DNA from: a virus | Reading direction: 5' to 3' (one strand) | Length of the DNA: 40,471 bases | Virus record (IMG/VR): IMGVR_UViG_3300027969_000193 | Span: 1-40,471 of that record | In this document: one piece after another, positions 2,011 to 40,384 of the stretch | Numbering within the stretch: position 1 is the stretch's first letter | Layout of the letters: each line of letters begins with the position of its first letter | The notes under the pieces: model-generated | What the model was told of the DNA's origin: nothing | The model's database searches: none | Seen by the model: the letters and a program-made list of their open reading frames with translations, nothing else | Translations under genes and position numbers: made by a program

Positions 2011-2030
2011 AGTATTATTTAGCCAAACAA

Positions 2031-4787: not shown

Positions 4788-4804
4788 ACATTTATTTATG
4801 CTAT

Positions 4805-7093: not shown

Positions 7094-7270
7094 TTATTTA
7101 GCGTTTTCTAATGCCTGGCGTATCTTGGTCAATTCGTCAGGCGACACCATAAAGAAGAATTCACGCCAGCCCAGTTCAGGAATGTATTTTTTAATCTTTA
7201 TAACATACTGATCTTTGCTGTGTTTTCGTAGAGTTATATCTAATTTGTAATCTTCTCTGTCTATGATCAT
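7094..7270 (-). CDS. Small protein (58 aa) of unknown function
   Basis: Fifty-eight codons from ATG at 7270 to TAA. The start overlaps the stop of the nucleotidyltransferase-like gene as ATGA, a translational-coupling arrangement used repeatedly in this genome. The protein is charged, with about one third Lys, Arg, Asp and Glu; it starts MIIDREDYKLDIT and has the segment PELGWREFFFMVSPDEL, which suggests a small compact beta/alpha fold. It fills what would otherwise be a 200-bp gap ahead of the portal gene. No family recognised. Confidence 0.72.
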   Translation of the reverse strand: MIIDREDYKLDITLRKHSKDQYVIKIKKYIPELGWREFFFMVSPDELTKIRQALENAK

Positions 7271-11502: not shown

Positions 11503-11517
11503 GTTATTTATACTACT

Positions 11518-12606: not shown

Positions 12607-12614
12607 AGTATTAT

Positions 12615-12977
12615 TTATACGTTCTTCACGCCTGTTAGTTTAGACAATGCGTCGGCAAATGCCTGTTGTTTTGCGGCTACAGCATCAGCACTATCAGTGA
12701 CTTCTATTTTAGCCAGACTATTCATAACCTTGCTTAAAATAAGATTGTGATATTTGATTACCGTGGCACTATCGCTGTTATTTCTGGCAGTCATAAAATC
12801 TTCAATCAGCAGTTCTTCGTAGTCTTTACCCTGTGTTTGATTAAAAACTTGTTCTAATAATCCACTGATAGTGACTGCGTCTTTGCTGCCTTTTGGTCTG
12901 CCCGAGCCTGGACGATATCCACCGTGACTTTTTACATTAGGGTTGGATTTTGTAGCAATTTTCTTTTCTTTTGTCAT
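12615..12977 (-). CDS. Putative terminase small subunit / DNA-binding protein
   Basis: 120 residues from ATG at 12977; the upstream extension from an earlier in-frame ATG would reach into the intergenic control region. The N-terminal GGYRPGSGRPKGSKD (residues about 19-33) is a signature found at the head of many phage small-terminase-like proteins; the rest is helical. It lies about 2.2 kb upstream of terL with packaging-block genes in between. A small terminase recognises the packaging start and stimulates the large subunit. The identification rests on this motif and position, so it is moderate. The gene is transcribed away from the plus-strand acetyltransferase gene. Confidence 0.55.
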   Translation of the reverse strand: MTKEKKIATKSNPNVKSHGGYRPGSGRPKGSKDAVTISGLLEQVFNQTQGKDYEELLIEDFMTARNNSDSATVIKYHNLILSKVMNSLAKIEVTDSADAVAAKQQAFADALSKLTGVKNV

Positions 12978-13025
12978 ATTATTATTTAGCAAGATTAAAT
13001 ATACAAACACTTGAAAGGATATGAA
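12978..13025. promoter_or_regulatory. Divergent intergenic region
   Basis: Forty-eight bases separate the divergent terminase-small candidate (minus) and acetyltransferase (plus) starts. It holds TAAATAATA next to the minus-strand start and, for the plus strand, an AT-rich stretch with AAAGGA seven bases before the ATG at 13026. A full -35/-10 pair is not clear; TTGTCA at 12971-12976 could serve as a plus-strand -35. Confidence 0.4.
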
Positions 13026-19389: not shown

Positions 19390-20136
19390 TTAAATCTTAA
19401 AGCCAAGGTTGCTGCCACTGCTTGAAGTAGTGCTACCAGTAGGACCAAGATTATAACTCGAACTTGGTGTGCCAAATATCACTGAAGCGTATTTGTTGTA
19501 TAGGTCTATGTCTGCTTGGCTGGCACCTAATTTAGTTTGAGCAGCCCCAACACCTTGTCCAATGCCACTTTGTCCTAATTGTGCTAATTGTCCAGCCGCA
19601 CCCATTCGTTGTCCAGCAACATCTCGTTGAACATCAGCGGCAGTTTTAGCCATCATATTGGCATTTGACCCAGCAAGTTGCCTGTCTGCTAATGCTTGTC
19701 TGGCACTACCTAAATTACCAGTGCCACCAAATTGTGCGGCTTGATTAGTAATGTTTTGTTGATATTGTGCTTGAGCAGGGGCTAACGCTGCCGATATCTG
19801 GTTCTTTTCGTAGTCAGGATTGAATAAACTTTCTAATCCACTAATACCAGTGCGTAATGCTGATTCGCCTGTTTCACCCAAGGCTTTTTGTGCGTTGCCT
19901 GCTACACCCGCAAGATTTTGACTGGCGTTTTTTACACCACCAGCACTTTGGTTATAAACATCTTTAGCACCGCCTACAGCACCTTTATAAAAATCTATTA
20001 AACCAGGGTCTTTAACACCTGTAGTTGGATCTATTGTTCCTGTAAAAAATTTGTTCTGTGCCTCTACCTGTGCTGCCTGAGCACCAGTTAGTCTTGGGTC
20101 TGTTGAACTTTGATTGTTGGATTTTCCGCCACTCAT
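19390..20136 (-). CDS. Internal virion (ejection-type) protein, Ala/Gly/Gln-rich
   Basis: 248 residues, Ser-rich start (MSGGKSNNQSSTDP) and tail, Ala/Gln/Gly-rich helical middle with ISAALAPAQAQYQQNITNQA and QALADRQLAG. The composition resembles ejection or DNA-transfer proteins of podoviruses. It heads the 248-793-1020 series. Ribosome binding site AAAGGAACCC before the ATG. Confidence 0.62.
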   Translation of the reverse strand: MSGGKSNNQSSTDPRLTGAQAAQVEAQNKFFTGTIDPTTGVKDPGLIDFYKGAVGGAKDVYNQSAGGVKNASQNLAGVAGNAQKALGETGESALRTGISGLESLFNPDYEKNQISAALAPAQAQYQQNITNQAAQFGGTGNLGSARQALADRQLAGSNANMMAKTAADVQRDVAGQRMGAAGQLAQLGQSGIGQGVGAAQTKLGASQADIDLYNKYASVIFGTPSSSYNLGPTGSTTSSSGSNLGFKI

Positions 20137-20171
20137 ATTGGGTTCCTTTGTATTGTATTATTTAGCATATT

Positions 20172-22247
20172 TTAATATCTATCTATCACGGGATTTATAA
20201 TCGAATTCACCGTCTGTTGAATTTGGTTGTAAGTTTCCCAATCGCCTGTAGCGGCTGCTCGTTGTTGTCTGGTCATCCAGTCACTACCAAGTTGTTTTAC
20301 AATCTCGGCTTGTTGTGCTTGCGTTGCTGGACTCATAGTAGCCACAGGAGCATTAGTGGGTGCTACTGCTCCGCTGGCTGAAGTCATTCCAAAACCCACT
20401 TGGAATGTGTTATTAGCATTTGGAGTCACCATACTGGCAGGATCATATGCTTGTCTGCGACTTGCTGACTGAACATTAAAACTTGGCACATTCTTACCAG
20501 CAATTAAATCTGCTATCTGTGCTCCTGTCAATGGTTTGGCAAGTTGTTGTAATCCCCAGGGCGTATCTTCACCATAGGCAGCGTTCCATTGTTGGTCATT
20601 GAATACAGGACCAACCTGATAACCGTGACTACCCCAGTTAAACTTTGCCTGAGCATCATCATAGGTATTATAAAAATTACTTGGATTGATATAACCAGCG
20701 TTTAAGCCACGACCACTTGGAGGTTGTGTAGGCGGCAATGTTGGAGGTAAAGTTGGTGGCAATGTTGGTCTAATTGTCGGAGGCAATGTAGGTGGCAACG
20801 TTGGTGTATAACTAAAAGTAAATGTTGGACGCTCTGTTGTCACAGGTGGCGTTGTAGTTGGAGGTGGCGTTGTAGGAGGCTCTGTTGGTGGTAGAGTCAT
20901 ATCAGTAAAACTAAACGACAGCGTTGGAGGCAGAGTTTCAATTATACTTTTTGTAGGTCTATCAGTTGTAATAATCCATTCAAAAATAGTATCTGTTTCT
21001 GTTTCTGGAGGCAATGTCATATCAGTAAAACTAAACGACAATGTTGGCGGTAATGTTTCAATTATACTCTTTGTAGGTCTATCAGTTGTAATAATCCATT
21101 CAAAAATAGTATCTGTTTCTGTCACTGGTGGTTCAGTAGTCAAAGGAGGCAACGTCATATCAGTAAAACTGAATGTAAATGTCTCACTTGGCTCAGGAGT
21201 TTTTGTAGGTCTATCAGTTGTAATAATCCATTCAAAAATAGTATCTGTTTCTGTCACTGGAGGCAACGTCATATCAGTAAAACTGAATGTAAATGTCTCA
21301 CTTGGCTCAGGAGTGCGAGTAGGTCTGTCTGTAGTAATAATCCATTCAAAAATAGTATCTGTTTCTGTTGGTTGTGGAGGCAGAGTATCTGTAAAACTAA
21401 AAGTAAATGATTGTGTTTCAGTTTGAGTAGGTCTATCAGTTGTAATAATCCATTCAAAAATAGTATCTGTTTCTGTGACAGGTGGTTCAGTTGGTTCAAT
21501 AGCACTACCCGTCATTGTAGGTTCAGGCGTGTCTGTAGGTTCAATAGCACTTCCAGTTAAAGTTGGTTCTGGAGTATCCGTTGGTTCAATAGCACTAAAA
21601 GTAAATGTAGGTTCAGGAGTTGCTGGACCAGTTGGCTCAGGTGTAGGTGGCACATAAGGATCAGTTGGTGCTTCAGTAGGTGGCACATAAGGCGTAGGTG
21701 CGTCAGTTGGAGGCACATAAGGATCAGTTGGTGCTTCAGTAGGTGGCACATAAGGATCAGTTGGTGCTTCAGTAGGTGGCACATAAGGATCAGTTGGTGC
21801 GTCTGTAGCAGGAGGATCTGTAGCAGGAGGATCTGTAGCAGGCGGGTCAGTATATACTGGATCAGTATATGGTGGATCGGTAGGAATATCAGGTCCAGGT
21901 CCAGGATCAGGTCCAGGTCCAGGATCGTATGGTGGTTCGTATGGAGGTTCTGCTGGACCACTGGGATCTAAATCGTCACCACCAAATCCACCATAACCAC
22001 CATCATTATAATAATAATCACCACCACCAAAATCATAATCACCACCGTAATCTATGGCTACATTGCCCCAACTATCGTCGCCAAAAGCAAATTCCAACAA
22101 ACCTGTGTTAGGGTTGCGTGAGCCTCTGCCGCCCATTTTTTTAAGTAAGGCTGCTTCTTCGGGATTGATGTGTGCTAATATGGTGTCACCATCTCTGCCA
22201 TAGTTAGCCAGCATTTCTGCCAATGTGGGTAGTTTATTTTTATTCAT
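20172..22247 (-). CDS. Pro/Thr-repeat virion protein
   Basis: 691 residues from ATG at 22247. A longer frame that starts at 22319 would overlap the preceding gene by more than 60 bases with no purpose, so it is rejected. Residues 1-45 carry GDTILAHINPEEAALL and NPNTGLLEF, a pattern I know from other phage virion proteins. Then follow a Gly/Asp/Tyr-rich patch, about 350 residues of nothing but Pro/Thr-rich repeats in four families (see repeat entries), and an ordinary C-terminal 200 residues. The repeats predict an extended, rod-like stalk. It sits among tail and ejection genes and is presumably on the virion; no ribosome binding site is evident. Confidence 0.72.
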   Translation of the reverse strand: MNKNKLPTLAEMLANYGRDGDTILAHINPEEAALLKKMGGRGSRNPNTGLLEFAFGDDSWGNVAIDYGGDYDFGGGDYYYNDGGYGGFGGDDLDPSGPAEPPYEPPYDPGPGPDPGPGPDIPTDPPYTDPVYTDPPATDPPATDPPATDAPTDPYVPPTEAPTDPYVPPTEAPTDPYVPPTDAPTPYVPPTEAPTDPYVPPTPEPTGPATPEPTFTFSAIEPTDTPEPTLTGSAIEPTDTPEPTMTGSAIEPTEPPVTETDTIFEWIITTDRPTQTETQSFTFSFTDTLPPQPTETDTIFEWIITTDRPTRTPEPSETFTFSFTDMTLPPVTETDTIFEWIITTDRPTKTPEPSETFTFSFTDMTLPPLTTEPPVTETDTIFEWIITTDRPTKSIIETLPPTLSFSFTDMTLPPETETDTIFEWIITTDRPTKSIIETLPPTLSFSFTDMTLPPTEPPTTPPPTTTPPVTTERPTFTFSYTPTLPPTLPPTIRPTLPPTLPPTLPPTQPPSGRGLNAGYINPSNFYNTYDDAQAKFNWGSHGYQVGPVFNDQQWNAAYGEDTPWGLQQLAKPLTGAQIADLIAGKNVPSFNVQSASRRQAYDPASMVTPNANNTFQVGFGMTSASGAVAPTNAPVATMSPATQAQQAEIVKQLGSDWMTRQQRAAATGDWETYNQIQQTVNSIINPVIDRY
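20721..20815 (-). repeat. PPTL tetrapeptide array
   Basis: In-frame 12-base units encode LPPT repeated about eight times with small variants (IRPT, QPPS) in the stalk of the 691-residue protein. The units are uneven at the third codon position, so they have been kept by selection on the protein or are old. Confidence 0.75.
20955..21475 (-). repeat. Five copies of a 47-bp repeat encoding TDTIFEWIITTDRP
   Basis: Copies begin at about 20955, 21075, 21207, 21321 and 21429, spaced 120, 132, 114 and 108 bases apart, always a multiple of three, so the frame is kept. Between them lie FSFTDMTLPP-type and Pro/Glu/Thr linkers that are also repeated. The core is almost invariant at protein level and nearly so in DNA, which points to recent tandem expansion. 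Confidence 0.9.
21480..21880 (-). repeat. SAIEPTDTPEPT and PTDPYVPPTEA repeat arrays
   Basis: Three copies of a unit encoding SAIEPTDTPEPT (about 21480-21620) are followed, toward the N-terminus, by five copies of a 36-base unit encoding APTDPYVPPTE (about 21645-21800) and by three or four copies encoding DPPAT. All are in frame. Confidence 0.85.
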
Positions 22248-22255
22248 TGTGTTAT

Positions 22256-23494
22256 TTATTTCTTTATAACCTGTGCTGTGAGACTGCGTCTGCCAACTTC
22301 CATATCTTCTATATACCATTCAACATCTTGTCCGCCTGGCAATGTTATAAAAGCAAATTCTAAAATATACCAGTAAAGTCCTGGTGCTGGATTATCTAAC
22401 AAGGTGGTAAAAACCGTGGTAGGATCAATGTTAAAAGATGTAGGTGATGTTGTGACACTATCTACTACTAATACTAAATTATTGACACCAGTGACACCAT
22501 TTAAGTCAACACCTGGAATTGTTATAGTGTCTCCAACAACAAAAGCATAGCCTGGGTTGTTGATAGTAATACTTGTATTTCCTGTGGTATATGCTCCTGC
22601 CGCACTACTGGGTAAATCTATGCTGAAGTTTTGATATTGTCCAATTCCTGAAGTAGTCATTTGGTAATTGGCTATAATAGCATAATAACCTGATGGTGTA
22701 GTATCTACTTTAGTTCCACTACTGGCATCTATACTCAAGGTCAGAATTTGTCCAACACCACCACTTAAAAAGAATGTCTGTGAGTGTTCTGCTACCGTGG
22801 CATCAAATTGATAAAAGTATTGTGGGTTCTGTGCTGTGCCATTGTTAAACGCAATATATCTATTTAATTGTGTGCTGAATTTAACATCACCGTTGCTGCC
22901 AGGTTCTACAACTTTGGCTGTAATTCCCAGTGCGTTTTCTGTGGTTATCATTGCTGACAAATTGACAAAATCTTCTGGACCTACTACACTGATAATACCA
23001 TTACAATCAGTGGATGCTCGAGTTTCTGTGCCAGCAGGACTTGGATAAAAATAAAGATATTCTAAAGACACCGTGCCTCCAGTGCCTGGACCTGGATTTG
23101 GATACGGGTTAGTTGCTCTGGCTATGACATAATTTACATCACAATACACAACACCAGTTCTGTTAAATGTTCCATCGTAGTCTGATGGTGTGACACCCGT
23201 GACCGTGATGTTGTTGCCTATGGCAAAAGGAGGAACTGCCTGCGGTGCGGCAAATTCATACTTCCAAGTAAAATCATCCAGCCAAGTGCTGTTGCCCAAG
23301 GCTATAGGTGCTACATAAGTTGGAGCATAGTTAGTATTACTATAAGGCAGTCTAAAATTACCTGTGATATAAGCAGTGGTAGATTTATTAAAACCTACAT
23401 TATATTGTCCAAGACCACTGGGTCCTGATATAGCATAATTTACTGCGTCTAATAGACTGGCATCATCGCCACCTGTAATAGGATACGTTGCCAT
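22256..23494 (-). CDS. Tail-associated structural protein (412 aa)
   Basis: Beta-rich, with many Thr, Gly, Ser and Tyr, no membrane segment. The C-terminal third has GNTSITINNPGYAFVVGDT and ends in DVEWYIEDMEVG. It starts in a TAATG overlap with the stop of the 705-residue gene and has GAGGACG as ribosome binding site. The pair looks like tail hub/needle or fibre-base proteins; no family recognised. Confidence 0.62.
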   Translation of the reverse strand: MATYPITGGDDASLLDAVNYAISGPSGLGQYNVGFNKSTTAYITGNFRLPYSNTNYAPTYVAPIALGNSTWLDDFTWKYEFAAPQAVPPFAIGNNITVTGVTPSDYDGTFNRTGVVYCDVNYVIARATNPYPNPGPGTGGTVSLEYLYFYPSPAGTETRASTDCNGIISVVGPEDFVNLSAMITTENALGITAKVVEPGSNGDVKFSTQLNRYIAFNNGTAQNPQYFYQFDATVAEHSQTFFLSGGVGQILTLSIDASSGTKVDTTPSGYYAIIANYQMTTSGIGQYQNFSIDLPSSAAGAYTTGNTSITINNPGYAFVVGDTITIPGVDLNGVTGVNNLVLVVDSVTTSPTSFNIDPTTVFTTLLDNPAPGLYWYILEFAFITLPGGQDVEWYIEDMEVGRRSLTAQVIKK

Positions 23495-25611
23495 TATCTA
23501 TCGTCCTCGACTTGTGTGAATTGCCAGGTAGTGGCACTACACATCCAGACATTGCTACTACTGGTATTCCCTAATTGTATGCTATTGACTCTGTGAGCAT
23601 TCTGATCCATTTGTATCCAAGGATTGTCAGTGTTTAATGCCATTGCTTGACTTGCTTTAGTCACTGGTTGTTGTCCTACACTATTAGCACCTTCTATGGT
23701 GACACTGATATTTCCTGGACTTGGTATAATGCTGATCTCGTCACTGCTACTAAAAGGTATAGCACCAATATTCACTGCTTCAGGTAGGATACGATGAACC
23801 ATCAACTTACCACTATAATCTTTGATCATTTTAATATTGTCTCTGCGGAACAATGAAGTTATCGCACTACCATCTGCCTGAGCATAGCCAATGTCTTTTT
23901 GAACTATTTTACTATCTGTGACACCCTGAGCATAGACCACGGTTCTGCTGCCAAGGTTGGGTGTCCAAACGCCAGGAGTATTTTCTGTATAGATAGGACT
24001 TTCACAGCCCATAGTCGCTGAACTTACATCTCTGGGTGCGTTCCAACAATCTATATCGTATCTGTATGACAGCATCTTGTTGGGCACACCACCAATAGCA
24101 TCAGCATCAGGATAGTAAATCTCAATCTGATTTTTCTGTGAGTTGGCTTCCATAAACACTCGGTCATAGTATTCAGGATCTAACTGATCGTAGAACCAAT
24201 TTTTAACACGTTGATTGCCTATACCTTGAAAGTCTTGACCATCAAACACCCAGATATCTCTGGCATCAACACCATAGACTAACTTGTCTGTGTTTGCCCA
24301 GCAGTTTGAACTGAGCAGTCCTCTGCCTTGATTGTATAACTTTACACCAAGGATAGGTGCTGATGTTGTGCTATAGTTGATAGGTGAGAACACCACGGTG
24401 TCCCAGTATGAACACAGAAAGAACTGACCATTACTTGGGAACGCATCAAGGGCAGGTCCTCGTAAGGGAACCTCTAACTGGTTGGCTACATTGGTTATGG
24501 TAGGTTCCCAAGTAAGTGGTGCGGCATTTAATCCAAACGCTTGACTCCATTGTATGGTCACAGGATATTCTTCTATGGCTGCTGTTGTGCTATTCACTGC
24601 TGTAAGATTACCTGCTACCAAAATACTACCTACGTTGGGTGTGCTATACATACGCATAAAGTTAGCACTATAACTTGACCAATATGGGTTATAGTTCCAA
24701 GCATATAATGGTGCTACACTACCACCTCCAGGATAGCCTGATGTTGGCACAGCCAGGTATATGATGCCTAATAATGTGCTGGATGATACTACAAACTGCC
24801 CATCATAAACACCATTGACTCCGCTGATAACTATGCGTGATCCTGCCAAGTATGGTATGCTGTCGTAAGGACTGCCAGTTATGGTTGTGCTTGCGGTGGT
24901 TTGTGATAGATTGACAATCCAAGTTGATCCAGCACCACTGCCACTTATGTTGCTGACAATCTTGGTGCCTGCTGTGACACCTGTGCCTGTAAGATATTGA
25001 CCCACGGTTGGTGTGCTTGCTCCACCAGTGACCGTGCCAATAGTCAGGGTAGTTCCACTTATGGTAGATCCTGTTGCCACAAAGGTATTACTGAATGTCA
25101 GGTATTGTTCTGTAGCACTGGAGAACACTATGTCGTCAATGTCTGTGGGCAATAGGTCTGAGTATAAAGTCAGCGTTGCGTCACCGTCTAACCACACCAT
25201 TGGTGGATTGAATGTGTCATTAAAGAAAGGCACGGTGCCATTCCAGGCTTCAGTGATATTGGTAGCCTGCGTATAACCTGCGAAGTTGCCACCTGCTGGT
25301 GTAATGTCTTGCCAAGTTCCATTGTATGTTGCCCACCATTTACCTTCTGTAGTTGCCACAATAAACCAGAACTCTGTGTCTGCTCTAAAGCCACCACTGA
25401 TGTATGTTGGTGTTCCATCAAGATCATCAAAAAACTCTTCTTCACCTGCCACTGAGCGTATGCCACGGACATCTGTTTCTACATTGAGTCCTTGATTGTA
25501 TTCATTGGGTCCCAACGCTGTTGAAGGAACATCGGGAGTGAATGTCATCTTTGCGAATGGTATGCGAACTTCGTCTAACGGGTTTTTTATTTGTGCCACT
25601 TTGGTTTCCAA
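23494..25611 (-). CDS. Large tail protein (705 aa), likely tail tube/stabiliser
   Basis: Beta-rich protein with repeated Trp/Phe-Gly blades (FWFIVATTEGKWWATYNGTW), in size and look similar to the propeller-like large tail proteins of podoviruses. A Gly/Thr/Ser-rich beta insert lies at residues about 178-246 and resembles those in the adaptor and fibre proteins. The frame begins at TTG (25611); no ATG is near. GTG at 25599 with TTGGAAACC before it is an alternative start. It is the first gene of the late block after the terminator at 25.66 kb. Confidence 0.65.
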   Translation of the reverse strand: METKVAQIKNPLDEVRIPFAKMTFTPDVPSTALGPNEYNQGLNVETDVRGIRSVAGEEEFFDDLDGTPTYISGGFRADTEFWFIVATTEGKWWATYNGTWQDITPAGGNFAGYTQATNITEAWNGTVPFFNDTFNPPMVWLDGDATLTLYSDLLPTDIDDIVFSSATEQYLTFSNTFVATGSTISGTTLTIGTVTGGASTPTVGQYLTGTGVTAGTKIVSNISGSGAGSTWIVNLSQTTASTTITGSPYDSIPYLAGSRIVISGVNGVYDGQFVVSSSTLLGIIYLAVPTSGYPGGGSVAPLYAWNYNPYWSSYSANFMRMYSTPNVGSILVAGNLTAVNSTTAAIEEYPVTIQWSQAFGLNAAPLTWEPTITNVANQLEVPLRGPALDAFPSNGQFFLCSYWDTVVFSPINYSTTSAPILGVKLYNQGRGLLSSNCWANTDKLVYGVDARDIWVFDGQDFQGIGNQRVKNWFYDQLDPEYYDRVFMEANSQKNQIEIYYPDADAIGGVPNKMLSYRYDIDCWNAPRDVSSATMGCESPIYTENTPGVWTPNLGSRTVVYAQGVTDSKIVQKDIGYAQADGSAITSLFRRDNIKMIKDYSGKLMVHRILPEAVNIGAIPFSSSDEISIIPSPGNISVTIEGANSVGQQPVTKASQAMALNTDNPWIQMDQNAHRVNSIQLGNTSSSNVWMCSATTWQFTQVEDDR

Positions 25612-25612
25612 T

Positions 25613-25642
25613 CTGATCTATTATTTAGCCACTGAGTTCAAC
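25613..25642 (-). promoter_or_regulatory. Candidate late promoter region
   Basis: Reading the minus strand, TTGAAC is followed eight bases later by TAAATAATA. This is a degenerate relative of the six early elements (CTGAAT, seven bases, TAAATA), but its downstream -10-like hexamer is missing. It is the only place between the early terminator and the first late gene where a promoter could lie. Confidence 0.35.
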
Positions 25643-25810: not shown

Positions 25811-26062
25811 TTATGCTTGGTAGTCCATCACGCTGTCCAATGTGAATCCATTGTTGTGTTTAATCACTGGACTCTTATACTCGGCAGCCTTGATCACGGT
25901 GTTCCAATCTACAACCACCGCACCATTTACTTGGTCATAGTATTCACGGTTGTCCATCAAATATTGCTCTTGAGCATCGGTGAGCATTAGCCCATCCAAA
26001 ACATTTACATCATAGAGCACTCTGGTGCTTTGGTTGTTGTCTTCAATAATAACTCTTCTCAT
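25811..26062 (-). CDS. Early protein of unknown function (83 aa)
   Basis: Acidic, mixed alpha/beta, no membrane segment; contains LTDAQEQYLMDNREYYDQVNG. Last gene of the early block. It has its own promoter-like element 33 bases upstream (26095-26128) and AAAGGAT as ribosome binding site. Not recognised. Confidence 0.68.
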   Translation of the reverse strand: MRRVIIEDNNQSTRVLYDVNVLDGLMLTDAQEQYLMDNREYYDQVNGAVVVDWNTVIKAAEYKSPVIKHNNGFTLDSVMDYQA

Positions 26063-26094: not shown

Positions 26095-26128
26095 ACTACA
26101 CAAGTATTTATCTCACGGTTCTGTTTAT
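26095..26128 (-). promoter_or_regulatory. Early promoter-like element, copy 1
   Basis: Minus strand: AACAGAAC at the upstream end, GATAAATA in the middle, TGTAGT downstream; hexamers CAGAAC and TGTAGT are 17 bp apart. It lies 33 bases before the start of the 83-residue gene. Confidence 0.6.
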
Positions 26129-26156
26129 TGCCCTGGGTTAGCAGGGCAATTTGTCC
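26127..26156. promoter_or_regulatory. Hairpin and 13-bp dyad upstream of early element 1
   Basis: A perfect 9-bp stem (ATTGCCCTG / CAGGGCAAT, loop of six) overlaps the dyad GGGCAATTTGTCC (26144-26156), an interrupted palindrome centred on 26150. The dyad starts 21 bases from the -35-like hexamer of the downstream element and 4 bases from the stop of the 120-residue gene. There is no T tract, so it is not a terminator. Confidence 0.55.
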
Positions 26157-26159
26157 AAT

Positions 26160-26522
26160 TTATATTTTGTTGCTCAAAAACTTTACCAACGGATCATTCT
26201 TAAAGTAAAAGAGTGTTCTATAATCAAAGTATTTTTTGTCGCCTTTTGATTTTACTTTTTTACCATTTTGTCTAATCAATATCCAACGGTTGTCATCAAA
26301 GTTTGGTAATATTGGTTGGTCTGTTTTGCGTTCTCGTTTCAATTCATATATCATATTTGAATTGGTAGGTCTAATAGTCAATATGCCTCTTTTGATTGAT
26401 AATACTTCACCAGTCTGACTGGGAGCAAAACCAGCATCGGTATGAAATATACTAATAACCTGTGCTCCAGACAACGGCTCTGTGTCCAATCCTAACTCAT
26501 CTACTAATGGTAATATGTTCAT
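26160..26522 (-). CDS. Early protein of unknown function (120 aa)
   Basis: Mixed alpha/beta with a basic centre and end (LKRERKTDQPILPNFDDNRW, KKVKSKGDKKYF). The sequence GAQVISIFHTDAGFAPS and later ILTIRPTNSNMIYEL suggest a small beta-barrel. Own promoter-like element upstream and AAAGGGAAC ribosome binding site. Not recognised. Confidence 0.68.
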   Translation of the reverse strand: MNILPLVDELGLDTEPLSGAQVISIFHTDAGFAPSQTGEVLSIKRGILTIRPTNSNMIYELKRERKTDQPILPNFDDNRWILIRQNGKKVKSKGDKKYFDYRTLFYFKNDPLVKFLSNKI

Positions 26523-26546
26523 AATGTAGTTCCCTTTCTATTTGTT

Positions 26547-26580
26547 TCTACACATTTATTTATCTCTGCGTTCTGTTATT
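26547..26580 (-). promoter_or_regulatory. Early promoter-like element, copy 2
   Basis: AATAACAGAAC, then GATAAATA, then TGTAGA; CAGAAC and TGTAGA are 17 bp apart. It lies 24 bases before the start of the 120-residue gene. A perfect 9-bp inverted repeat (CTCTGCGTT / AACGCAGAG, 26564-26572 and 26590-26598) flanks the upstream hexamer. Confidence 0.62.
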
Positions 26581-26595
26581 TTACTACACAACGCA

Positions 26596-26608
26596 GAGCA
26601 ATTTGCCC
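26596..26608. promoter_or_regulatory. 13-bp dyad upstream of early element 2
   Basis: GAGCAATTTGCCC, the same half-sites as at 26144-26156 and 27695-27707, with one mismatched pair. The gap to the -35-like hexamer is 20 bases, equal to that in copy 1. Confidence 0.5.
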
Positions 26609-26616
26609 ATTTTGTT

Positions 26617-27240
26617 TTACCAATAATAATTATCTTTTGGTTCAGGCTTAAAACCAAACACACGCTCCACATAACGGTTGCTCACGGTCCTGATGTTAAA
26701 CCGTTGCCTACCGTTCTTCAAGCGTAGTGGATCTTTCACAGCATACTTGTCAAGTATCTTGGCAATCTCAGCATCTACCTTGGCTAAATCTTCTGTGCGT
26801 ATATAAACATTGGGCACATCTATTCTAACAGCACGATCCACATATGTGCGTTCGCCATTTTGATAGATATGATTGTAGTCACAATAACTACAGATCTGTG
26901 TTTTAATCTTTCTACGCTGTTCAATCAGATCGTGAGTAGCCTGTGTCAGTCTGTCTTTAATGGTGGCTAACATTATGGGTGTATTCTGGAATGCCACGTT
27001 GTTCAACATCGTTGCGTCATCTTTTTGTAGCGTGTCATCATCAATCATCAGCGTGTTCAACTCTGTCCAAAGGTCCAGTCTATTTTTTTTCCAGAATGTA
27101 TCCTGCCCCAGCATATTCATAAACTTTTGCTTGTCATCATAAGTTTTGATTCTGTTCAACGCTGGACCTAATGGCAGCGTGATGCGTTCTCTGGTGCGTT
27201 CTCGCACAAGTGTCAGGTAAATTGGTTTGGTGTTTAACAT
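26617..27240 (-). CDS. Early protein of unknown function (207 aa)
   Basis: Basic, helical protein. A central part (about residues 115-150) has CSYC with nearby His/Asn (DYNHIYQNGERTY), and the C-terminus is Arg/Lys-rich (RLKNGRQRFNIRTV). A DNA- or RNA-binding role is possible but not proven by any motif I know. Own promoter-like element (27253-27286) and AAAGGAAC ribosome binding site. Confidence 0.68.
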   Translation of the reverse strand: MLNTKPIYLTLVRERTRERITLPLGPALNRIKTYDDKQKFMNMLGQDTFWKKNRLDLWTELNTLMIDDDTLQKDDATMLNNVAFQNTPIMLATIKDRLTQATHDLIEQRRKIKTQICSYCDYNHIYQNGERTYVDRAVRIDVPNVYIRTEDLAKVDAEIAKILDKYAVKDPLRLKNGRQRFNIRTVSNRYVERVFGFKPEPKDNYYW

Positions 27241-27252
27241 ATCAGTTCCTTT

Positions 27253-27286
27253 TCTATATAAATATTTATCTTTACATTCAGTTATT
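27253..27286 (-). promoter_or_regulatory. Early promoter-like element, copy 3
   Basis: AATAACTGAAT, GATAAATA, TATAGA; CTGAAT and TATAGA 17 bp apart. It sits immediately after the stop of the 103-residue gene and 12 bases before the start of the 207-residue gene. Confidence 0.65.
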
Positions 27287-27287
27287 T

Positions 27288-27599
27288 TTAAAATACTTTG
27301 TCTTCTTTAGGATACAACAATCCAAACAAACCTAATCTTATTTCTTCGTGCTTTTTAGGTCTATACAAATTTACTTGTTTTAAAGCCTTGTTCAACCAAC
27401 GCTGTCCTCTGTTGCCTTGTCTTGTTATTTTACCAGGCTGTTCAACTATTTCATAGTTTATCCCCAGTTCCATTCCATCAAACTTGCCTTTTAATTTTGA
27501 CAAAAAAACGTGTTCATCTGTGATGTTCAACCAAGCACCTGCCATAAAGTCTTTGTTGCCTGAATCAAACTCTTTTAAAATATATGTGTAATAAGTCAT
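27288..27599 (-). CDS. Early protein of unknown function (103 aa)
   Basis: Mixed composition with a basic C-terminal half (RQGNRGQRWLNKALKQVNLYRPKKHEE). Aromatic-rich start MTYYTYILKEF. Not recognised. Expression probably starts at the sigma70-type promoter at 27656-27684 or at element 4; ribosome binding site AAAGGGAC. Confidence 0.68.
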   Translation of the reverse strand: MTYYTYILKEFDSGNKDFMAGAWLNITDEHVFLSKLKGKFDGMELGINYEIVEQPGKITRQGNRGQRWLNKALKQVNLYRPKKHEEIRLGLFGLLYPKEDKVF

Positions 27600-27624
27600 T
27601 GTGTAGTCCCTTTCTTTGTTATGT

Positions 27625-27658
27625 TCTACAATAGTATTTACCTTACTATTCAGTTATT
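27625..27658 (-). promoter_or_regulatory. Early promoter-like element, copy 4
   Basis: AATAACTGAAT, GGTAAATA, TGTAGA; CTGAAT and TGTAGA 17 bp apart. It lies directly downstream of a canonical sigma70 promoter, whose -10 box ends where this element begins. Confidence 0.6.
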
Positions 27659-27684
27659 ATACAATGAAACACACACAAAGTCAA
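27656..27684 (-). promoter_or_regulatory. Canonical sigma70 promoter
   Basis: Minus strand TTGACT, 17 bp, TATAAT: five of six and six of six matches to consensus at the ideal spacing. It is the best host-type promoter I find in the window and would be read by host polymerase at once after infection. It drives the 103-residue gene and, by read-through, the genes beyond. Confidence 0.8.
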
Positions 27685-27694
27685 TAGTTTTTTT

Positions 27695-27707
27695 GGGCAA
27701 TTTGTCC
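27695..27707. promoter_or_regulatory. 13-bp dyad upstream of the sigma70 promoter
   Basis: GGGCAATTTGTCC, identical to 26144-26156. It begins 10 bases upstream of the -35 box (27679-27684) of the sigma70 promoter and lies 2 bases after the stop of the 87-residue gene, a position suited to an activator or repressor. Confidence 0.52.
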
Positions 27708-27709
27708 AA

Positions 27710-27973
27710 TTAGTTTCCAACTTCCATAACCTTAAAATCATCGCACTTAAATCTGTAGTTCAATCGTCTGGCTTGTAAGTTAGCACTACCAAGATTAGTG
27801 TATGTTAGTTTTTTATACTTGTGAATGTTGCCACTCATACTACCCTGTGTAATTCTAATGTTAGCAGGATCGTCTTTGTAAGTAATCACATAAAACTTAT
27901 CTGCTTGTAATATTTCCCATAAGTCGTCGCCAACTTCTTGTGCTAATCTAACTATTGGTTTAGGTCGTGCCAT
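27710..27973 (-). CDS. Small early protein (87 aa)
   Basis: Mixed alpha/beta, basic C-terminal half with RRLNYRFKCDDFK. Start ATG preceded by AAGGATTAC; overlaps the upstream gene by 14 bases. Not recognised. Confidence 0.66.
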   Translation of the reverse strand: MARPKPIVRLAQEVGDDLWEILQADKFYVITYKDDPANIRITQGSMSGNIHKYKKLTYTNLGSANLQARRLNYRFKCDDFKVMEVGN

Positions 27974-28187
27974 CTGTAATCCTTGTAAATCTTCTAATGT
28001 ATTCTGGATGCTTTAATATAAAAGCAAATGCCTGTTCGTCAGTCATTGTAGCCCAGTATTGTTGCCACTGCCAATCTATGCCTGTAGCAAACGGACTTTG
28101 GTTGTGATACTCTTTTAAGTCATCAACAAGTTTTTTAACTGGTTGGTTTTCACCTTCGTAGTCCATATCCTGTGTAATCTTCATCAT
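27960..28187 (-). CDS. Small early protein (75 aa)
   Basis: ATG at 28187 overlaps the HNH gene stop as ATGA, like most coupled genes here; an earlier ATG at 28199 is possible. Trp-rich middle (GIDWQWQQYWATMTDEQAFAF) and helical build, no membrane segment. Not recognised. Confidence 0.62.
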   Translation of the reverse strand: MMKITQDMDYEGENQPVKKLVDDLKEYHNQSPFATGIDWQWQQYWATMTDEQAFAFILKHPEYIRRFTRITDGTT

Positions 28188-28603
28188 ATGTTCCACCATC
28201 TTTCTTGTGTTTGAACTGGTATTATTTTCGCAATTCTTTCAGGCTTTGCTTGTCTGGGTATTTCTATAGTCCTGTCAGTGCCATCCAGTCTATACTTGCG
28301 TTGATTTGGTTTAACATCAAAATGCTGCCAATTCATACAAAATGCGTTGCCGCAAGTATGTTTGATCTGTTTGTCATCGCAGTCTTCACCAAACACATCT
28401 CTAAACAAAATGCGTCTGGCTTGTGTCATCTGTGCTTGACCTGATTTTCGTCCGCCATACAAGTTAGTCTGCGGACCACGGCTGCCTATCCAAGCCCAGC
28501 AACTATCATCGTCAGTTTTGACGATCTTTGACCATAACACGGTGCTGTTCCATTCCCACACACCCACCGTTTTGCGTTCGCCTGCTCGTCTGCCTTTACT
28601 CAT
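28184..28603 (-). CDS. HNH-family endonuclease-like protein
   Basis: 139 residues from ATG at 28603, chosen over ATG at 28615 because GGAG lies seven bases upstream. The motif HTCGNAFCMNWQHF at residues 82-95 is the zinc-binding form of HNH (H, C, C, N, H). Basic N-terminus. HNH proteins cut or nick DNA; in phages they are homing enzymes or work with packaging. Its place in the early block, away from terminase, fits a homing or host-DNA role. The gene is coupled to the zincin by an 8-bp overlap. Confidence 0.76.
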   Translation of the reverse strand: MSKGRRAGERKTVGVWEWNSTVLWSKIVKTDDDSCWAWIGSRGPQTNLYGGRKSGQAQMTQARRILFRDVFGEDCDDKQIKHTCGNAFCMNWQHFDVKPNQRKYRLDGTDRTIEIPRQAKPERIAKIIPVQTQERWWNI

Positions 28604-28898
28604 TTCGTTCTCCAAATAAGTTTTTAAGTTCTTGGTTGCTACTCAACAGATCCAACAAACCTAACGCTAACAGATCAACCTGCTTTTCTGTTAAACCAAG
28701 ATGTAGTTTCTGCTCAACTGCGTGTATCAATTCGTGTGTCAGTGTGTGACGCAGACTTGGTTCTGTCTGTGTGTCATTTAACAAGATCAGGTTTTGATCT
28801 ACTACACATCTACCTAAATCTGTGTCCAATTCCAACTCAGTGCCCATTCTTATACTCCATTCTTGTCCAAATAGTTTGAACTTGTGTAGTGCTTCCAT
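28596..28898 (-). CDS. Small zinc metalloprotease-like protein
   Basis: 100 residues with HELIH at residues 55-59 in the context THELIHAVEQKL, a zincin HExxH active helix; a following LTEKQVDLLALGLLDLL helix resembles small ImmA/SprT-like proteases. No third ligand is obvious. It is the first gene of a four-gene unit (zincin, HNH, 75 aa, 87 aa) under element 5, with an ideal ribosome binding site AAAGGAGA. Confidence 0.7.
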   Translation of the reverse strand: MEALHKFKLFGQEWSIRMGTELELDTDLGRCVVDQNLILLNDTQTEPSLRHTLTHELIHAVEQKLHLGLTEKQVDLLALGLLDLLSSNQELKNLFGERNE

Positions 28899-28911
28899 TT
28901 CATATCTCCTT

Positions 28912-28945
28912 TGTATATATCTATTTATCCTGATATTCAGTTATT
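28912..28945 (-). promoter_or_regulatory. Early promoter-like element, copy 5
   Basis: AATAACTGAAT, GATAAATA, TATACA; CTGAAT and TATACA 17 bp apart. It lies 13 bases before the start of the zincin gene. Confidence 0.65.
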
Positions 28946-28976
28946 TGCTATTAAACTTCGTTTATACCTGGTTTTT

Positions 28977-28988
28977 GGCAAAGTTGCC
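28977..28988. promoter_or_regulatory. Dyad upstream of early element 5
   Basis: GGCAAAGTTGCC, related to the 13-bp dyads but with five-base arms and a two-base centre. Confidence 0.35.
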
Positions 28989-29180
28989 TGTGTTTTACAA
29001 TTTACGAATCAGTTTTAGAAACTTTTTACAACGCACATAAAAACACATAATTGTATTTTTTATTATTCTTATATACTTTATATTTCTATAGTAAAAATAG
29101 TAAAAGTAATAAAAGTAGTGCTAAAATCGCTATTACAGGTGCTTACAATGCTGGTTTTACATTTACGAGTTAAAAAACAA
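28989..29180 (+). other. AT-rich region with a possible tiny plus-strand ORF
   Basis: Most of the 313-bp space between zincin and primase-helicase. I see no minus-strand gene in it. On the plus strand, TTG at 29051 opens 40 codons to TAA at 29171-29173, giving a hydrophobic aromatic N-terminus (MYFLLFLYTLYFY), a Lys/Ser linker and a Gly/Ala/Thr end, with a terminator right after it. No ribosome binding site is visible and no clear promoter either, so a non-coding transcript or nothing is equally possible. Confidence 0.28.
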
Positions 29181-29200
29181 AACCGTAATACTTTACGGTT
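29181..29200. terminator. Two-way terminator after the primase-helicase gene
   Basis: Perfect 8-bp stem AACCGTAA / TTACGGTT with loop TACT. On the minus strand it is followed by TTGTTTTTT and ends the 551-residue gene's transcript; on the plus strand it is followed by TTATTTT. Confidence 0.85.
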
Positions 29201-29211
29201 TTATTTTAATT

Positions 29212-30867
29212 TTAGCCCTTAAAAATCCAAACTACTCTGCCATTCTCCTCGGTCATATACTCGTGATCAGTGTCATACAGGCTGTCATTTACACTATTCG
29301 TAAAACTTATTAGTCTCCAAACGGTGCGTTGATAGCCAATCTTATCCAATCTGTTCTCATAAATCTTTGCTCGTTCTTGAAGTTTAACTGGCAGTTGTCT
29401 GTCTTTTATCAGTCGCAGTATCTCTTCACGCATTCTATTTCTGCCAGGAACTATCTCACCACGATTTTTTTCCCTGATCAATTGTTCCAATAATTCTGCT
29501 CTGATAAATGTAAAGTCTGGATCAGTGAATACTTGTTCCACGGTCTGTGTCCAACTGCCACGCTGTCTGTCGATCAGTGCTTGATACTCAACACCGTGAC
29601 AGGGTTTAACTGCTGTAATGTCACCGTGCTTTGCTGCCATAGCATTGATCCAACGTCCTACCTGTTCTCTGCTAAACAATAAGTTTTGCCCACTATCATC
29701 GCCAACACCTTCAATCCAAGTTTTAACTTCTTCCAATGTTAGATCCTGCTGTTCATACTCCAACATATAACGCTGACAAGTCTGGTAAATGTTCTTTGTA
29801 GTCTTAAACAGACTATAACGGTTATCACTTTGAGTGCCTGATAGCGTAATGCCACCAGTTATCTCATTGCTATAACTCATCACAAGTCCAGTGTTATCTG
29901 CCAGATACGGCACCTGATACTTTGCTTCGATCAGTATTTTTGGACTGCCCAAAAATGCTTTCATACGCTCAACATCAACTTTGTCTCTGCGTGTTTCATT
30001 GACAACAATCACAGCCTGACCAGCGATCACGCTATTAAACTTGCCCGTCACGTGATCAGTATTACAATTGTCTGCTACTTTGCCATTAAACAACCTGCGT
30101 AAGAATGTATTACTGATTAAACCTTTACCTGCTCTGCCTTCTTGGTCACGTATAAACAAGTTAGGCAAGAATGGATTGTTTGGATGTAAGTATTTGCTCC
30201 ATAGTGTTTTCTGTAGCGGTAAATAACTTTTTTCACCGTCTCTGTCATCACCACTAATGCTTTCCATAACAGCATCAAAGATCCAATGATAATCAGTTCT
30301 GCCAGTTTCTTCAGGCTGGCAAAAATTACTATTCATAATGTTTAGACAACCAGGTTGGTCTGTATAACTTTGTATGACATTGGTAAATGTTCGACCCTGT
30401 TCAACCAGCATCTTATTAAACTGCTTAAAACTGCTGTAATCTTCCTGACCTTCGCCCATTCTAATATACACATCAGTTATACTAAAGTTTGCTTGTAGTG
30501 CGTCTTTCTTTATACTAACCCAGGGTCTATTACCAAACTGGTCTGGTAGTTTTGGCTGATAAAACCACACAGCATTACCAGTGCTACTCATATAAAAGTT
30601 ATACTCGTCAATAATTTTGGCTAACTCTTGTTCGCTTTCACTTTTTGTTTGTAGTTTGTTTTCCCTGGCAGCAGCCTTGACTGCTTCTTTAACCAAATCT
30701 TTAACTAACTTTTCACTGCCTAAATCACCCTGCTCAACCTGTTGTATAGATTTTTCAATCTTACCAACTTCAGTGCTACTACCACTTTTAAGTGCCAGTG
30801 CTTTCTTTATTTTAAGTTGTTCAAGGATAGTTTCACGCAGTTCTAATTCTCGTTCTATATTATTCAT
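29212..30867 (-). CDS. Primase-helicase, DUF5906-type ATPase
   Basis: 551 residues. N-terminal 90 residues form a charged coiled-coil-like helix. The ATPase core has a phosphate-binding loop with GRAGKG (residues 244-249; GKG in place of GKS/T, which is normal in DUF5906 primase-helicases), a Walker-B-like AVIVVNE at 285-291, and MSYSNE (sensor asparagine) near 330-335. The C-terminus ends in GRVVWIFKG. Together with the primase-polymerase ahead of it, it should open the replication fork. It follows that gene by one base and is ended by a strong terminator. Confidence 0.75.
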   Translation of the reverse strand: MNNIERELELRETILEQLKIKKALALKSGSSTEVGKIEKSIQQVEQGDLGSEKLVKDLVKEAVKAAARENKLQTKSESEQELAKIIDEYNFYMSSTGNAVWFYQPKLPDQFGNRPWVSIKKDALQANFSITDVYIRMGEGQEDYSSFKQFNKMLVEQGRTFTNVIQSYTDQPGCLNIMNSNFCQPEETGRTDYHWIFDAVMESISGDDRDGEKSYLPLQKTLWSKYLHPNNPFLPNLFIRDQEGRAGKGLISNTFLRRLFNGKVADNCNTDHVTGKFNSVIAGQAVIVVNETRRDKVDVERMKAFLGSPKILIEAKYQVPYLADNTGLVMSYSNEITGGITLSGTQSDNRYSLFKTTKNIYQTCQRYMLEYEQQDLTLEEVKTWIEGVGDDSGQNLLFSREQVGRWINAMAAKHGDITAVKPCHGVEYQALIDRQRGSWTQTVEQVFTDPDFTFIRAELLEQLIREKNRGEIVPGRNRMREEILRLIKDRQLPVKLQERAKIYENRLDKIGYQRTVWRLISFTNSVNDSLYDTDHEYMTEENGRVVWIFKG

Positions 30868-30868
30868 A

Positions 30869-31810
30869 TTATTTCCTTGCTAATAATTTCAGTGTAGATA
30901 ATGGTAAATCTCTAACTACACCACGATCACTCAATAGATCGCTGACCAAATGTTTTAATGTTCCTCTGCCTGGACTTTTACCAGGATTGTATCCTCGTGT
31001 AAGTCTGTAATACTCATTTGCCGTTTGCTCAGGATAGAACTGGTTCATCACTACCAATCCCGCACTTGGACCAAGTTCTTTATAAACTGCCCAAGTGACA
31101 TTACGCCACACATCATACGCTAACATCGTGTATTTTTGTTTAAGTAGCGTTAAAAGACTGCTAATGTATTCAACATCATCTTCAGTTAAATCATCAACTA
31201 TCTTTAACGGCACCGCAACAACATCAAACTTTGGTTGTGGGCGTTGATATGTAAGTATAAACTCCAACAACCTATCTGGTATTGTCTGTATATTTACGCA
31301 ACTTGGTGCTCTGTCCCAGCGGTAATATATTTCTGGATCATTGACGCTGTCAGGATGTCGGCTTGGCGGTAATACACTTTGACAACCTGCTTCAAATGTT
31401 CCCCATCTAAACTCAAGTTGTTGCGGCTTACCATCATCACCAGTTGGTCCAGTGACAGCGAACTTTGCTGGCATAACTGACCAACACTCTTCTGGCACTT
31501 TAAATGCCATTTGTGCTCTGCCAGTTTTACCACTGCTCCAACACACCGTATCAACGTCTTCAAACGGTATTTGTATGTGTTCCTGCCAATACTCCCAGGT
31601 CCAAGGTCCGTCAAAATCCACGGCTAATATTCCATCACTGGCTTGACCAAGTATAACACCAATGTTGGCTGTGCCTGCTTGTGCCTGCGTCAGCCATTTC
31701 TTTTGCCAGTTGGGTGTTCTTGGACCTTTGGTTGGCTGTCCATTTATATCTGGTATAGCACAGAACCTCCAGCCCTGTGCTTCCAATATTGCTAATTCTG
31801 GATCGTTCAT
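30869..31810 (-). CDS. Primase-polymerase (PrimPol domain)
   Basis: 313 residues. N-terminal PrimPol fold: GVILGQASDGILAVDFDGP at residues 51-69 with catalytic DFD (65-67), then a LEFRWG strand near 132-137 and the VLPPSRHPD element at 146-154 with the conserved His. C-terminal 120 residues form a helical domain with ARG and GYNPGKSPGRGTL. These enzymes make primers and can extend them; this is the only polymerase-like protein in the window. It is translated after the 50-residue gene by ATGA overlap and leads into the primase-helicase. Confidence 0.8.
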   Translation of the reverse strand: MNDPELAILEAQGWRFCAIPDINGQPTKGPRTPNWQKKWLTQAQAGTANIGVILGQASDGILAVDFDGPWTWEYWQEHIQIPFEDVDTVCWSSGKTGRAQMAFKVPEECWSVMPAKFAVTGPTGDDGKPQQLEFRWGTFEAGCQSVLPPSRHPDSVNDPEIYYRWDRAPSCVNIQTIPDRLLEFILTYQRPQPKFDVVAVPLKIVDDLTEDDVEYISSLLTLLKQKYTMLAYDVWRNVTWAVYKELGPSAGLVVMNQFYPEQTANEYYRLTRGYNPGKSPGRGTLKHLVSDLLSDRGVVRDLPLSTLKLLARK

Positions 31811-31959
31811 CTTTTGGCTAACTGCTCACATACATCAATCATCATCTCTGTAATTTCTTCAATGTATGCGGCAGTCTGTAAATCACGTTCTTCAATAGCA
31901 GCCAAGTTTCGGTTCATTTGTTTTAGTAGTTCAACTACTTGATCTTCATATGCTGTCAT
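31807..31959 (-). CDS. Tiny helical protein (50 aa)
   Basis: Fifty residues, acidic and coiled-coil-like (Glu, Leu, Gln, Ile, Ala), e.g. EDQVVELLKQMNRNLAA. TGATG overlap with the upstream 47-residue gene and ATGA overlap with the primase-polymerase, so three genes are translationally coupled. Not recognised. Confidence 0.72.
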   Translation of the reverse strand: MTAYEDQVVELLKQMNRNLAAIEERDLQTAAYIEEITEMMIDVCEQLAKR

Positions 31960-32102
31960 CACGCATACCTCCGATACTCTTCAGGCTCTGGTTCTTCGTC
32001 CTGTTCATCTTGTTCAACTTCGTTGATCTGTTCAGGAGTTTCTTGTGCTTGTAGTTCAGCGACATCAGCGTTGCTCAACCACCATAATGTGATATTGTTC
32101 AT
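31959..32102 (-). CDS. Tiny acidic protein (47 aa), first gene of the replication unit
   Basis: Forty-seven residues; after a short hydrophobic start (MNNITLWWLSNAD) nearly all Glu, Asp, Gln and Pro. ATG at 32102 with AAAGGAAC ribosome binding site, 14 bases after early element 6. Acidic DNA-mimic or host-inhibitor roles are typical for such early peptides, but this is inference. Confidence 0.72.
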   Translation of the reverse strand: MNNITLWWLSNADVAELQAQETPEQINEVEQDEQDEEPEPEEYRRYA

Positions 32103-32116
32103 AGTGTTCCTTTCTA

Positions 32117-32150
32117 ACTATACATTTATTTATCTTCGCATTCAGATATT
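32117..32150 (-). promoter_or_regulatory. Early promoter-like element, copy 6
   Basis: ATATCTGAAT, GATAAATA, TATAGT; CTGAAT and TATAGT 17 bp apart. It heads the replication unit (47, 50, 313 and 551 aa) and lies between the late terminator and the first early gene. Confidence 0.63.
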
Positions 32151-32188
32151 TTACAACAAAATACTATCAATTTAGCCAAAAAATAAAA

Positions 32189-32218
32189 AAACCCTGACCA
32201 CGGCAGTAATCAGGGTTT
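32189..32218 (-). terminator. Late-block terminator
   Basis: Perfect 9-bp stem AAACCCTGA / TCAGGGTTT with a 12-nt loop, followed on the minus strand by TTTTATTTTTT. It ends the late transcript after the last late gene and insulates the replication unit. Confidence 0.88.
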
Positions 32219-32220
32219 AG

Positions 32221-32294
32221 TGTAGTAGCGTATTAGAAAGGGATATATACTTATGATTATAACTCAGAGCCATTGCGGATGAGTTGCTACTACA
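32221..32294 (-). ncRNA. Possible structured RNA at the 3' end of the late transcript
   Basis: A perfect 9-bp inverted repeat (TGTAGTAGC / GCTACTACA) encloses 56 bases; next to it inside, AACTCA and TGAGTT can form a second 6-bp stem stacked on the first. It lies 3 bases after the stop of the 58-residue gene and 2 bases before the terminator stem. The cloverleaf-like outline is not a tRNA: no T-loop sequence and no anticodon arm. It could be a stability element, a 3'-derived small RNA or an operator. Confidence 0.4.
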
Positions 32295-32297
32295 TTA

Positions 32298-32474
32298 TTA
32301 TTTAGTCAGATCATCCACTAATTTGTTAAATTCTATTTCACTTTCTGCTCGTAATACCATACCATATACTTCGGCAGCCACTTCTGGATGTTGTCGTTGA
32401 AGTTCTTGGGCATAATCCCAGTCGTCACTTTTAAATGCCTGATATAGTTCTGCTAATAATTCGAGGTGTGTCAT
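32298..32474 (-). CDS. Small helical protein (58 aa), last late gene
   Basis: Fifty-eight codons from ATG at 32474 to TAA. It overlaps the upstream gene by 44 bases in another frame. Acidic helical protein with repeats of Glu-Leu and Ala (LELLAELYQAFKSDDWDYAQ). Coding is supported by even length, no internal stop and continuity with neighbouring operon genes, but the long overlap lowers confidence. Confidence 0.6.
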   Translation of the reverse strand: MTHLELLAELYQAFKSDDWDYAQELQRQHPEVAAEVYGMVLRAESEIEFNKLVDDLTK

Positions 32475-32712
32475 TGTTCAGTTCCATAAATTCGCTCCAT
32501 ACAGCAACAAGTTTATCCACCGTTTCATAATCATACTTGCCAATCAAGTAAGTGATTTTGGCATCGTGTATCTCACTGCCTAAAGTAATCATTCCGTCTT
32601 TAGGTTCAAGATACACCAAAAGATGATCATCATCCAAGTATATCTTACCATTATCTACTTCTATAGTAGGACAAAAACCTGCGAACCAACGGGTTAAATC
32701 TTCTTTGTTCAT
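32431..32712 (-). CDS. Small protein (93 aa) of unknown function
   Basis: Mixed alpha/beta, acidic N-terminal half (VDNGKIYLDDDHLLVYLEPKD). No membrane segment. Preceded by a 26-base gap that holds a TAAATA core but no ribosome binding site. Not recognised. Confidence 0.65.
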   Translation of the reverse strand: MNKEDLTRWFAGFCPTIEVDNGKIYLDDDHLLVYLEPKDGMITLGSEIHDAKITYLIGKYDYETVDKLVAVWSEFMELNNDTPRIISRTISGI

Positions 32713-32738
32713 AGTAGTATTTATGCCACTGGTTCATA

Positions 32739-39161: not shown

Positions 39162-39170
39162 TGATTATCC

Positions 39171-40382: not shown

Positions 40383-40384
40383 TT

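Follow-up and report, generated by a model that had tools for sequence, protein, structure and literature searches.

A T4-late-type TAAATA box as the probable core of early promoters in a small phage with SU10-family portal and capsid proteins

Six conserved elements stand before the early and replication units of the phage genome described here, and they are probably promoters built on a -10 box of the T4 late type. This box would be shared across the whole phage family and read by a gp55-like factor, and a further upstream box would set the early units apart as a class. We give this reading a probability of about two in three. The promoters would be built around (G)ATAAATA at -13/-12 to -6, with the start (+1) six bases past the last A. 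The bare form, [A/C]TAAATA, would serve the structural genes and a small RNA, and GATAAATA combined with AAAWAACWGAAY (-31 to -19) would serve the early units in the clade to which the phage belongs.

The stretch of DNA analysed, which we will call the window (40,471 bp; G000), is an IMG/VR-type virus record in which the genes of note are all encoded on the minus strand. In Pfam and PHROGs scans, its portal falls in the SU10 family PF23899 and its major capsid protein in the SU10 family PF17236. For replication, the window encodes a Prim-Pol and a DUF5906 helicase; it also encodes a Dps/ferritin-like protein and a glycosyltransferase of the GlcNAc type, and no tRNA genes have been found. On the coding strand, the initial 1.34 kb matches the genome's own end at 86%, and contig G002 spans the end-to-end junction at 99-100%. 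The record is therefore a circularly permuted genome of ~39 kb, and its two ends are strain variants of one stretch. Similarly, the near-duplicate 403-aa genes at 1-1400 and 39100-40471 are strain variants of a single gene. In one relative, G008 (L101/L102), 15-bp tandem repeats (ACAGAACCAGTATAT...) have been observed at both record ends.

The relatives were collected with a terminase scan, which gave 128 matching stretches, and 80 contigs with 75-100% identity were kept. The window is a complete genome, and several of the relatives are fragments. The genes universal in the family form the structural and packaging module, and no early gene common to the whole family was found. The most distant relative, MW202484, has portal, terminase, and capsid proteins with ~46-60% identity, and the motif bias described below is absent from it. 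A host-lineage search returned no portal relatives in bacterial or archaeal genomes, and for the terminase it returned only a 28% match, located on a contig of an archaeal MAG.

A first-pass annotation of the window had reported six promoter-like copies of a common element, each heading one gene or short unit and each containing a conserved core in its spacer. All six are present at the reported places and are read on the minus (coding) strand. The pattern AACWGAAYNNNRRGRTAAATA with up to one mismatch has 6 matches in the window, which are exactly these sites, while 0.02 are expected in shuffled sequences. Element 1 (AAAATATCTGAATGCGAAGATAAATAAATGTATA; 32119..32152, predicted +1 at 32121) heads a unit formed by a small ORF, the Prim-Pol, and the DUF5906 helicase, and element 2 (28914..28947, predicted +1 at 28916) heads the unit of a SprT-like protein and an HNH endonuclease. 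The other four each head a single ORF: element 3 (27627..27660, predicted +1 at 27629) the 103-aa ORF 27288-27599, element 4 (27255..27288, predicted +1 at 27257) the 207-aa ORF 26617-27240, element 5 (26549..26582, predicted +1 at 26551) the 120-aa ORF 26160-26522, and element 6 (26097..26130, predicted +1 at 26099) the 83-aa ORF 25811-26062. The transcript from element 6 is predicted to open with a 7-bp hairpin, GTAGTTA-AATA-TAACTAC. Each site heads one unit, as had been claimed, and every unit between 32.1 and 25.8 kb is covered. The reported spacer core is also real: it reads GATAAATA (GGTAAATA in element 3, annotated at 27625), with AATAA just upstream. The upstream box (-31 to -19) precedes all six early units of the window and none of the late units. 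A hairpin-forming repeat similar to TTGGACAAATTGCCC is found between early units, at 26140-26160, 26590-26610, and 27693-27709; strings of this kind precede several early elements by ~30-50 bp or more and are also present in G005 and G007.

In the relatives, copies of the early element have been identified in G005 (four), G007 (five), L211 (three), G004 (one), and G001 (one), giving ~14 copies, or ~20 with those of the window. When the copies are aligned on TAAATA, the conserved stretch is AAAWAACWGAAY-N3-RRGATAAATA (also written AACWGAAY-N3-RRGATAAATA), and the distance from the upstream box to GATAAATA is fixed. The genes behind the copies are not homologous. They include a GIY-YIG-like ORF in G005, a 47-aa ORF in the window, the 207-aa family, the SprT-like family, and unrelated small ORFs. 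Since the genes differ, the similarity of the elements has not been inherited through gene homology. In a scan of 2.9 million viral contigs, the strict pattern matched only the close clade of the window, and a loose pattern gave mostly chance matches inside genes. The upstream ACWGAAY box is a clade-specific mark of early units.

The core has a much wider distribution, as the box [A/C]TAAATA occurs throughout the family and GATAAATA is its form at early units. In ~1 Mb of sequence from the relatives, the strings most enriched upstream of genes are 8-mers around [A/C]TAAATA. The box is enriched ~30-50-fold in this position, and ACTAAATA is found upstream of genes 42 times versus 0.9. The strand counts across the family are 177:9 for ATAAATA and 168:29 for CTAAATA, whereas the comparison strings GTAAATA and AATAAAT give 62:62 and 113:114. 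In the window alone, the raw count of MTAAATA is not above chance (18 vs 19.9) and the strand bias is 17:1, with 17 of the 18 on the coding strand; the signal within the window lies in strand bias and position and not in the raw count. At three of the first five bases after the box, the A+T content is 0.86-0.88 compared with a background of 0.60. No conserved -35 is present at the bare sites, where no upstream information was found among 250 non-redundant sites. In the early region, scanning for generic sigma-70 promoters gave a background-level result (23 vs 23.4).

The bare box, in which the upstream box is absent, precedes most other units of the phage and its relatives. In the window, all of the following sites are on the minus strand. 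CTAAATA precedes the portal gene (7095..7101), ORF 19390-20136 (20159..20165), the tail gene 23494-25611 (25622..25628), and a predicted small structured RNA (32299..32305). The CTAAATA at 2016..2022 is conserved in relatives and is located directly behind an intrinsic terminator (2052-2031), with the ATG of ORF 1420-2010 at the predicted +1, which would make this gene leaderless. Leaderless ATGs are also predicted behind the ATAAATA boxes at 4793..4799 (ORF 4443-4787), 12612..12618, and 32718..32724 (ORF 32431-32712). The ATAAATA at 11505..11511 precedes the unit of a 260-aa protein, a 98-aa protein, and the terminase, and is followed by a terminator-like hairpin (11502-11482). This combination of a box and a hairpin within ~10 nt (11512-11482 on the minus strand) is found at the same place in three relatives (G001, G008, and G024), and the hairpin is possibly an attenuator or a 5' hairpin.

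The position of the start codons points to where transcription would begin. Counting offsets from the T of TAAATA to the first ATG of the ORF, an ATG is found at offset 11 at 57 sites and at offsets 10 and 12 together at 7 sites, where the count of 57 is inflated because orthologous sites were counted in several close-clade genomes. Four control motifs give 1-3 ATGs at offset 11. The same lock of the ATG at offset 11 is present in nine other genomes of the family, and a second, broad group of ATGs, with Shine-Dalgarno leaders, lies at offsets 20-35. In the window and in more than eight relatives, the box preceding the gene of a 196-aa protein lies directly behind a terminator-like hairpin; this arrangement of terminator, box, and ATG leaves no space for another promoter. 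In the early leaders, 4-bp complements peak at offsets 9-11, with 10 of 20 at offset 11. From the ATG lock, the stems of the small RNA described below, and these complements, we infer that +1 is at offset 11, six bases after TAAATA, which would put TAAATA at -11 to -6. TRTAG, at about -1 to +4, would then be mostly initiator sequence, and many structural genes are predicted to be leaderless with their ATG at +1. The motif, its conservation, its strand bias, its position, and the ATG lock are properties of the DNA itself, and a lock of this exactness allows start sites to be mapped from sequence alone in uncultured phages and offers a route towards the missing factor.

The ATG lock also suggests that two ORFs of the window start inside the longest reading frame (MNKNKLPTLAEML and MTKEKKIATKSNP). 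Behind the ATAAATA at 22253..22259, the leaderless ATG at 22247 would be the true start of ORF 20172-22319, in place of 22319. Similarly, behind the CTAAATA at 12983..12989, the ATG at 12977 would replace 13010 as the start of ORF 12615-13010; both are on the minus strand.

The predicted small RNA (32189..32293, minus strand) has a GTAGTAGC...GCTACTAC closing stem running from the predicted +1, followed by an intrinsic terminator (32218-32189). In the window and in three relatives (G005, G001, and G021), the closing stem opens at offset 10 or 11, and its start lies at offsets 7-11 across the window and seven relatives. Counterparts of the RNA are seen in these seven (G001, G005, G007, G008, G011, G019, and G021) and in G024. 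The closing stem is 8-16 bp long, and its sequence changes on both sides between phages. The RNA has single-stranded CCYUUYCU stretches, and the terminator is present in the window and close relatives. In some early leaders, the Shine-Dalgarno region has 9-10 nt complementary to the loop of the RNA. The RNA has no match in Rfam.

The start sites, the polymerase with its factor, and the timing of expression are deduced from these sequence features. The units would be transcribed by the host RNA polymerase. Since the base at the predicted -11 is T and not A, which is disfavoured by sigma-70, a gp55-like specificity factor would be needed to read the core. The first-pass annotation had also called for a factor beyond plain sigma-70 to explain GATAAATA, and we judge this to be right. 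A second factor or contact would read ACWGAAY and make the units early. Expression may begin with sigma-70 at a few early units and then pass to a factor-dependent programme on the TAAATA boxes.

Several searches have been made for the factor that reads the box. Neither gp55 (phrog_234) nor sigma region 2 (Sigma70_r2) has a match in 15 records, a gp55 profile built from 22 sequences has no match in the family, and profile-profile comparison of gp55 with 147 ORF clusters (hhalign) gave probabilities below 5% throughout. The gp45 clamp (PF09116) has no match in 14 records, in a search where the named controls scored only weakly, and a six-frame search for a T7-type polymerase (PF00940) gave no match, with its controls negative as well. 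Among the large ORFs of the window, those for which a match exists encode structural or replication proteins, and the others are without a match. Two universal proteins have been considered as sigma candidates and rejected: the model of the 196-aa protein folded poorly, and a fold search with the model of the 260-aa protein gave no match. The reader of the box would be a diverged phage protein or a host factor, possibly an odd host sigma.

A different account, which we consider unlikely, takes ACWGAAY-N6-TAAATA as the binding site of a phage regulator. This site would overlap the region where sigma-70 promoters start transcription, and the -10 of these promoters (TANAAT) would lie at the AAAWAA end. 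A near-consensus sigma-70 promoter, TTGACT-17-TATAAT (27656..27684, minus strand), has its -10 adjoining the box of element 3. In all, four early sites from three phages have TTGACT-N16/17-TA(T/C)AAT with an adjoining -10: this one, the corresponding site in G007, and two in L211. Also, TANAAT is present at the AAAWAA end in about half of the copies. However, the -35 at the remaining early sites is no better than in shuffled sequence. A regulator site also leaves the bare [A/C]TAAATA, with its ATG locked at offset 11, unexplained.

The partition proposed in the first-pass annotation is very improbable as a promoter model. There, CTGAAT or CAGAAC was taken as a sigma-70-type -35 and TRTAGW or TATACA as the -10, with 17 bp between them and a helper protein on GATAAATA. 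The spacing is indeed exact in the six copies of the window, but it is not a defining property of the element. The element recurs before early units of the close clade, and TRTAGW is not conserved there. The tail of the G005 copy at 31320 is 2 bp closer, other copies end in TATTAC, TAATGTTA, or TACACA, and in the G007 copies at 18190 and 20766 the second box is missing as such. In addition, CTGAAT shares only 3 of the 6 bases of TTGACA, and at 28912 a transcript beginning 7 bases past the second box would start within the Shine-Dalgarno sequence. The family-wide strand bias of TAAATA and the ATG lock also count against this partition. The copies would be promoters of early units, as first proposed, with the core itself, and not TRTAGW, in the -10 position.

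We give a similarly low probability to the proposal of an RNA element, in which the conserved stretch would control stability or translation from within the 5' leader and the promoters would lie further upstream. The leaders do tend to form a short 5' stem around the Shine-Dalgarno sequence, and half of them have the complement at offset 11. However, these stems begin at offsets 9-11, downstream of the box, as would follow from its being promoter DNA, and the terminator directly before the bare boxes leaves an upstream promoter no space. Promoters of a T7-type single-subunit phage RNA polymerase are the least credible reading. It is suggested by the length of the conserved element, which ends in (T)ATAG around the predicted +1, and by the resemblance of the terminal TATAG to the T7 initiation region. 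However, in Pfam and PHROGs no window ORF above 300 aa has an RNA polymerase match, in agreement with what had first been noted.

The preferred reading, a T4-late-type core with an added upstream box, leads to a broader proposal, which we hold tentatively and at slightly less than even odds. A widespread family of small tailed phages would run its whole transcription programme, including the early genes, on T4-late-type boxes, using the host RNA polymerase and a specificity factor unlike gp55 in sequence or an unusual host sigma. A second upstream box would separate early from late, and many late genes would be leaderless.

Other promoter systems share single features with this arrangement. 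In the MotA-dependent middle promoters of T4, an upstream box for a phage factor replaces the -35 beside a -10 box. The idea of an upstream box is the same here, but its sequence and spacing differ and the -10 is not the sigma-70 TATAAT. The portal and capsid families of phiEco32 and SU10 are homologous to those described here. These phages also have a Dps-like protein, and a phage-specific -10-type motif in their middle/late promoters, which depend on the ECF sigma gp36. The phiEco32-type promoter is tAATGTATAtA, located 6-8 nt upstream of the start and used with an ECF sigma (PMC4281155). The motif here is different, with AATGTRTA in only 2 of the 6 early copies, and no sigma region 2 is matched. 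In Deinococcus-Thermus, leaderless genes have the -10 motif TANNNT adjoining the ORF (PMC12340547). A -10 box right before the ATG of leaderless genes would be common to both, but in Deinococcus-Thermus it is a classical TANNNT read by RpoD, whereas here it is an invariant TAAATA with T at the predicted -11.

The closest likeness is to the late promoters of T4-type phages (T4, RB49, KVP40, cyanomyoviruses, and Aeh1). The T4 late promoter is TATAAATA at -13 to -6, with the variant CTAAATA from -12 in Aeh1 (PMC1524935), and the cyanomyovirus late promoters have NATAAATA (PMC2984593). In T4, the -35 is absent and the downstream segment is AT-rich (PMC2988020). The family described here has the same core, [A/C/G]TAAATA at -12 to -6, with a predicted start six bases on, an AT-rich downstream segment, no -35 at the bare sites, and structural genes among those served. 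The first-pass statement that no described promoter family matches was therefore too strong, as both the core and its geometry agree with T4-type late promoters (PMC1524935, PMC2988020). Outside T4-like phages, literature searches gave no match to described GATAAATA or CTAAATA promoters. Published work presents T4 late transcription as confined to the T4-related phages and linked to gp55 and the replication clamp (PMC2988020). In these phages, gp55 recognises the late promoters in concert with gp33 and the gp45 clamp, whereas gp55 and gp45 have not been found in this family, the phage is ~39 kb, and the gene content seen is unrelated to that of T4. The same core also heads early units here, with the extra ACWGAAY box, and many starts at +1 are predicted to be leaderless. 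We therefore compare the boxes and not the systems: in its DNA features the box appears to work like a T4 late promoter, and we make no claim that the T4 late system is present in the phage. The interest of the comparison is that T4-late-type boxes would run a small, unrelated phage family that has no recognisable gp55. If this is true, the same box and the same start distance in small SU10-type phages that lack gp55 and the clamp would point either to convergent evolution or to an unrecognised class of sigma-like factors.
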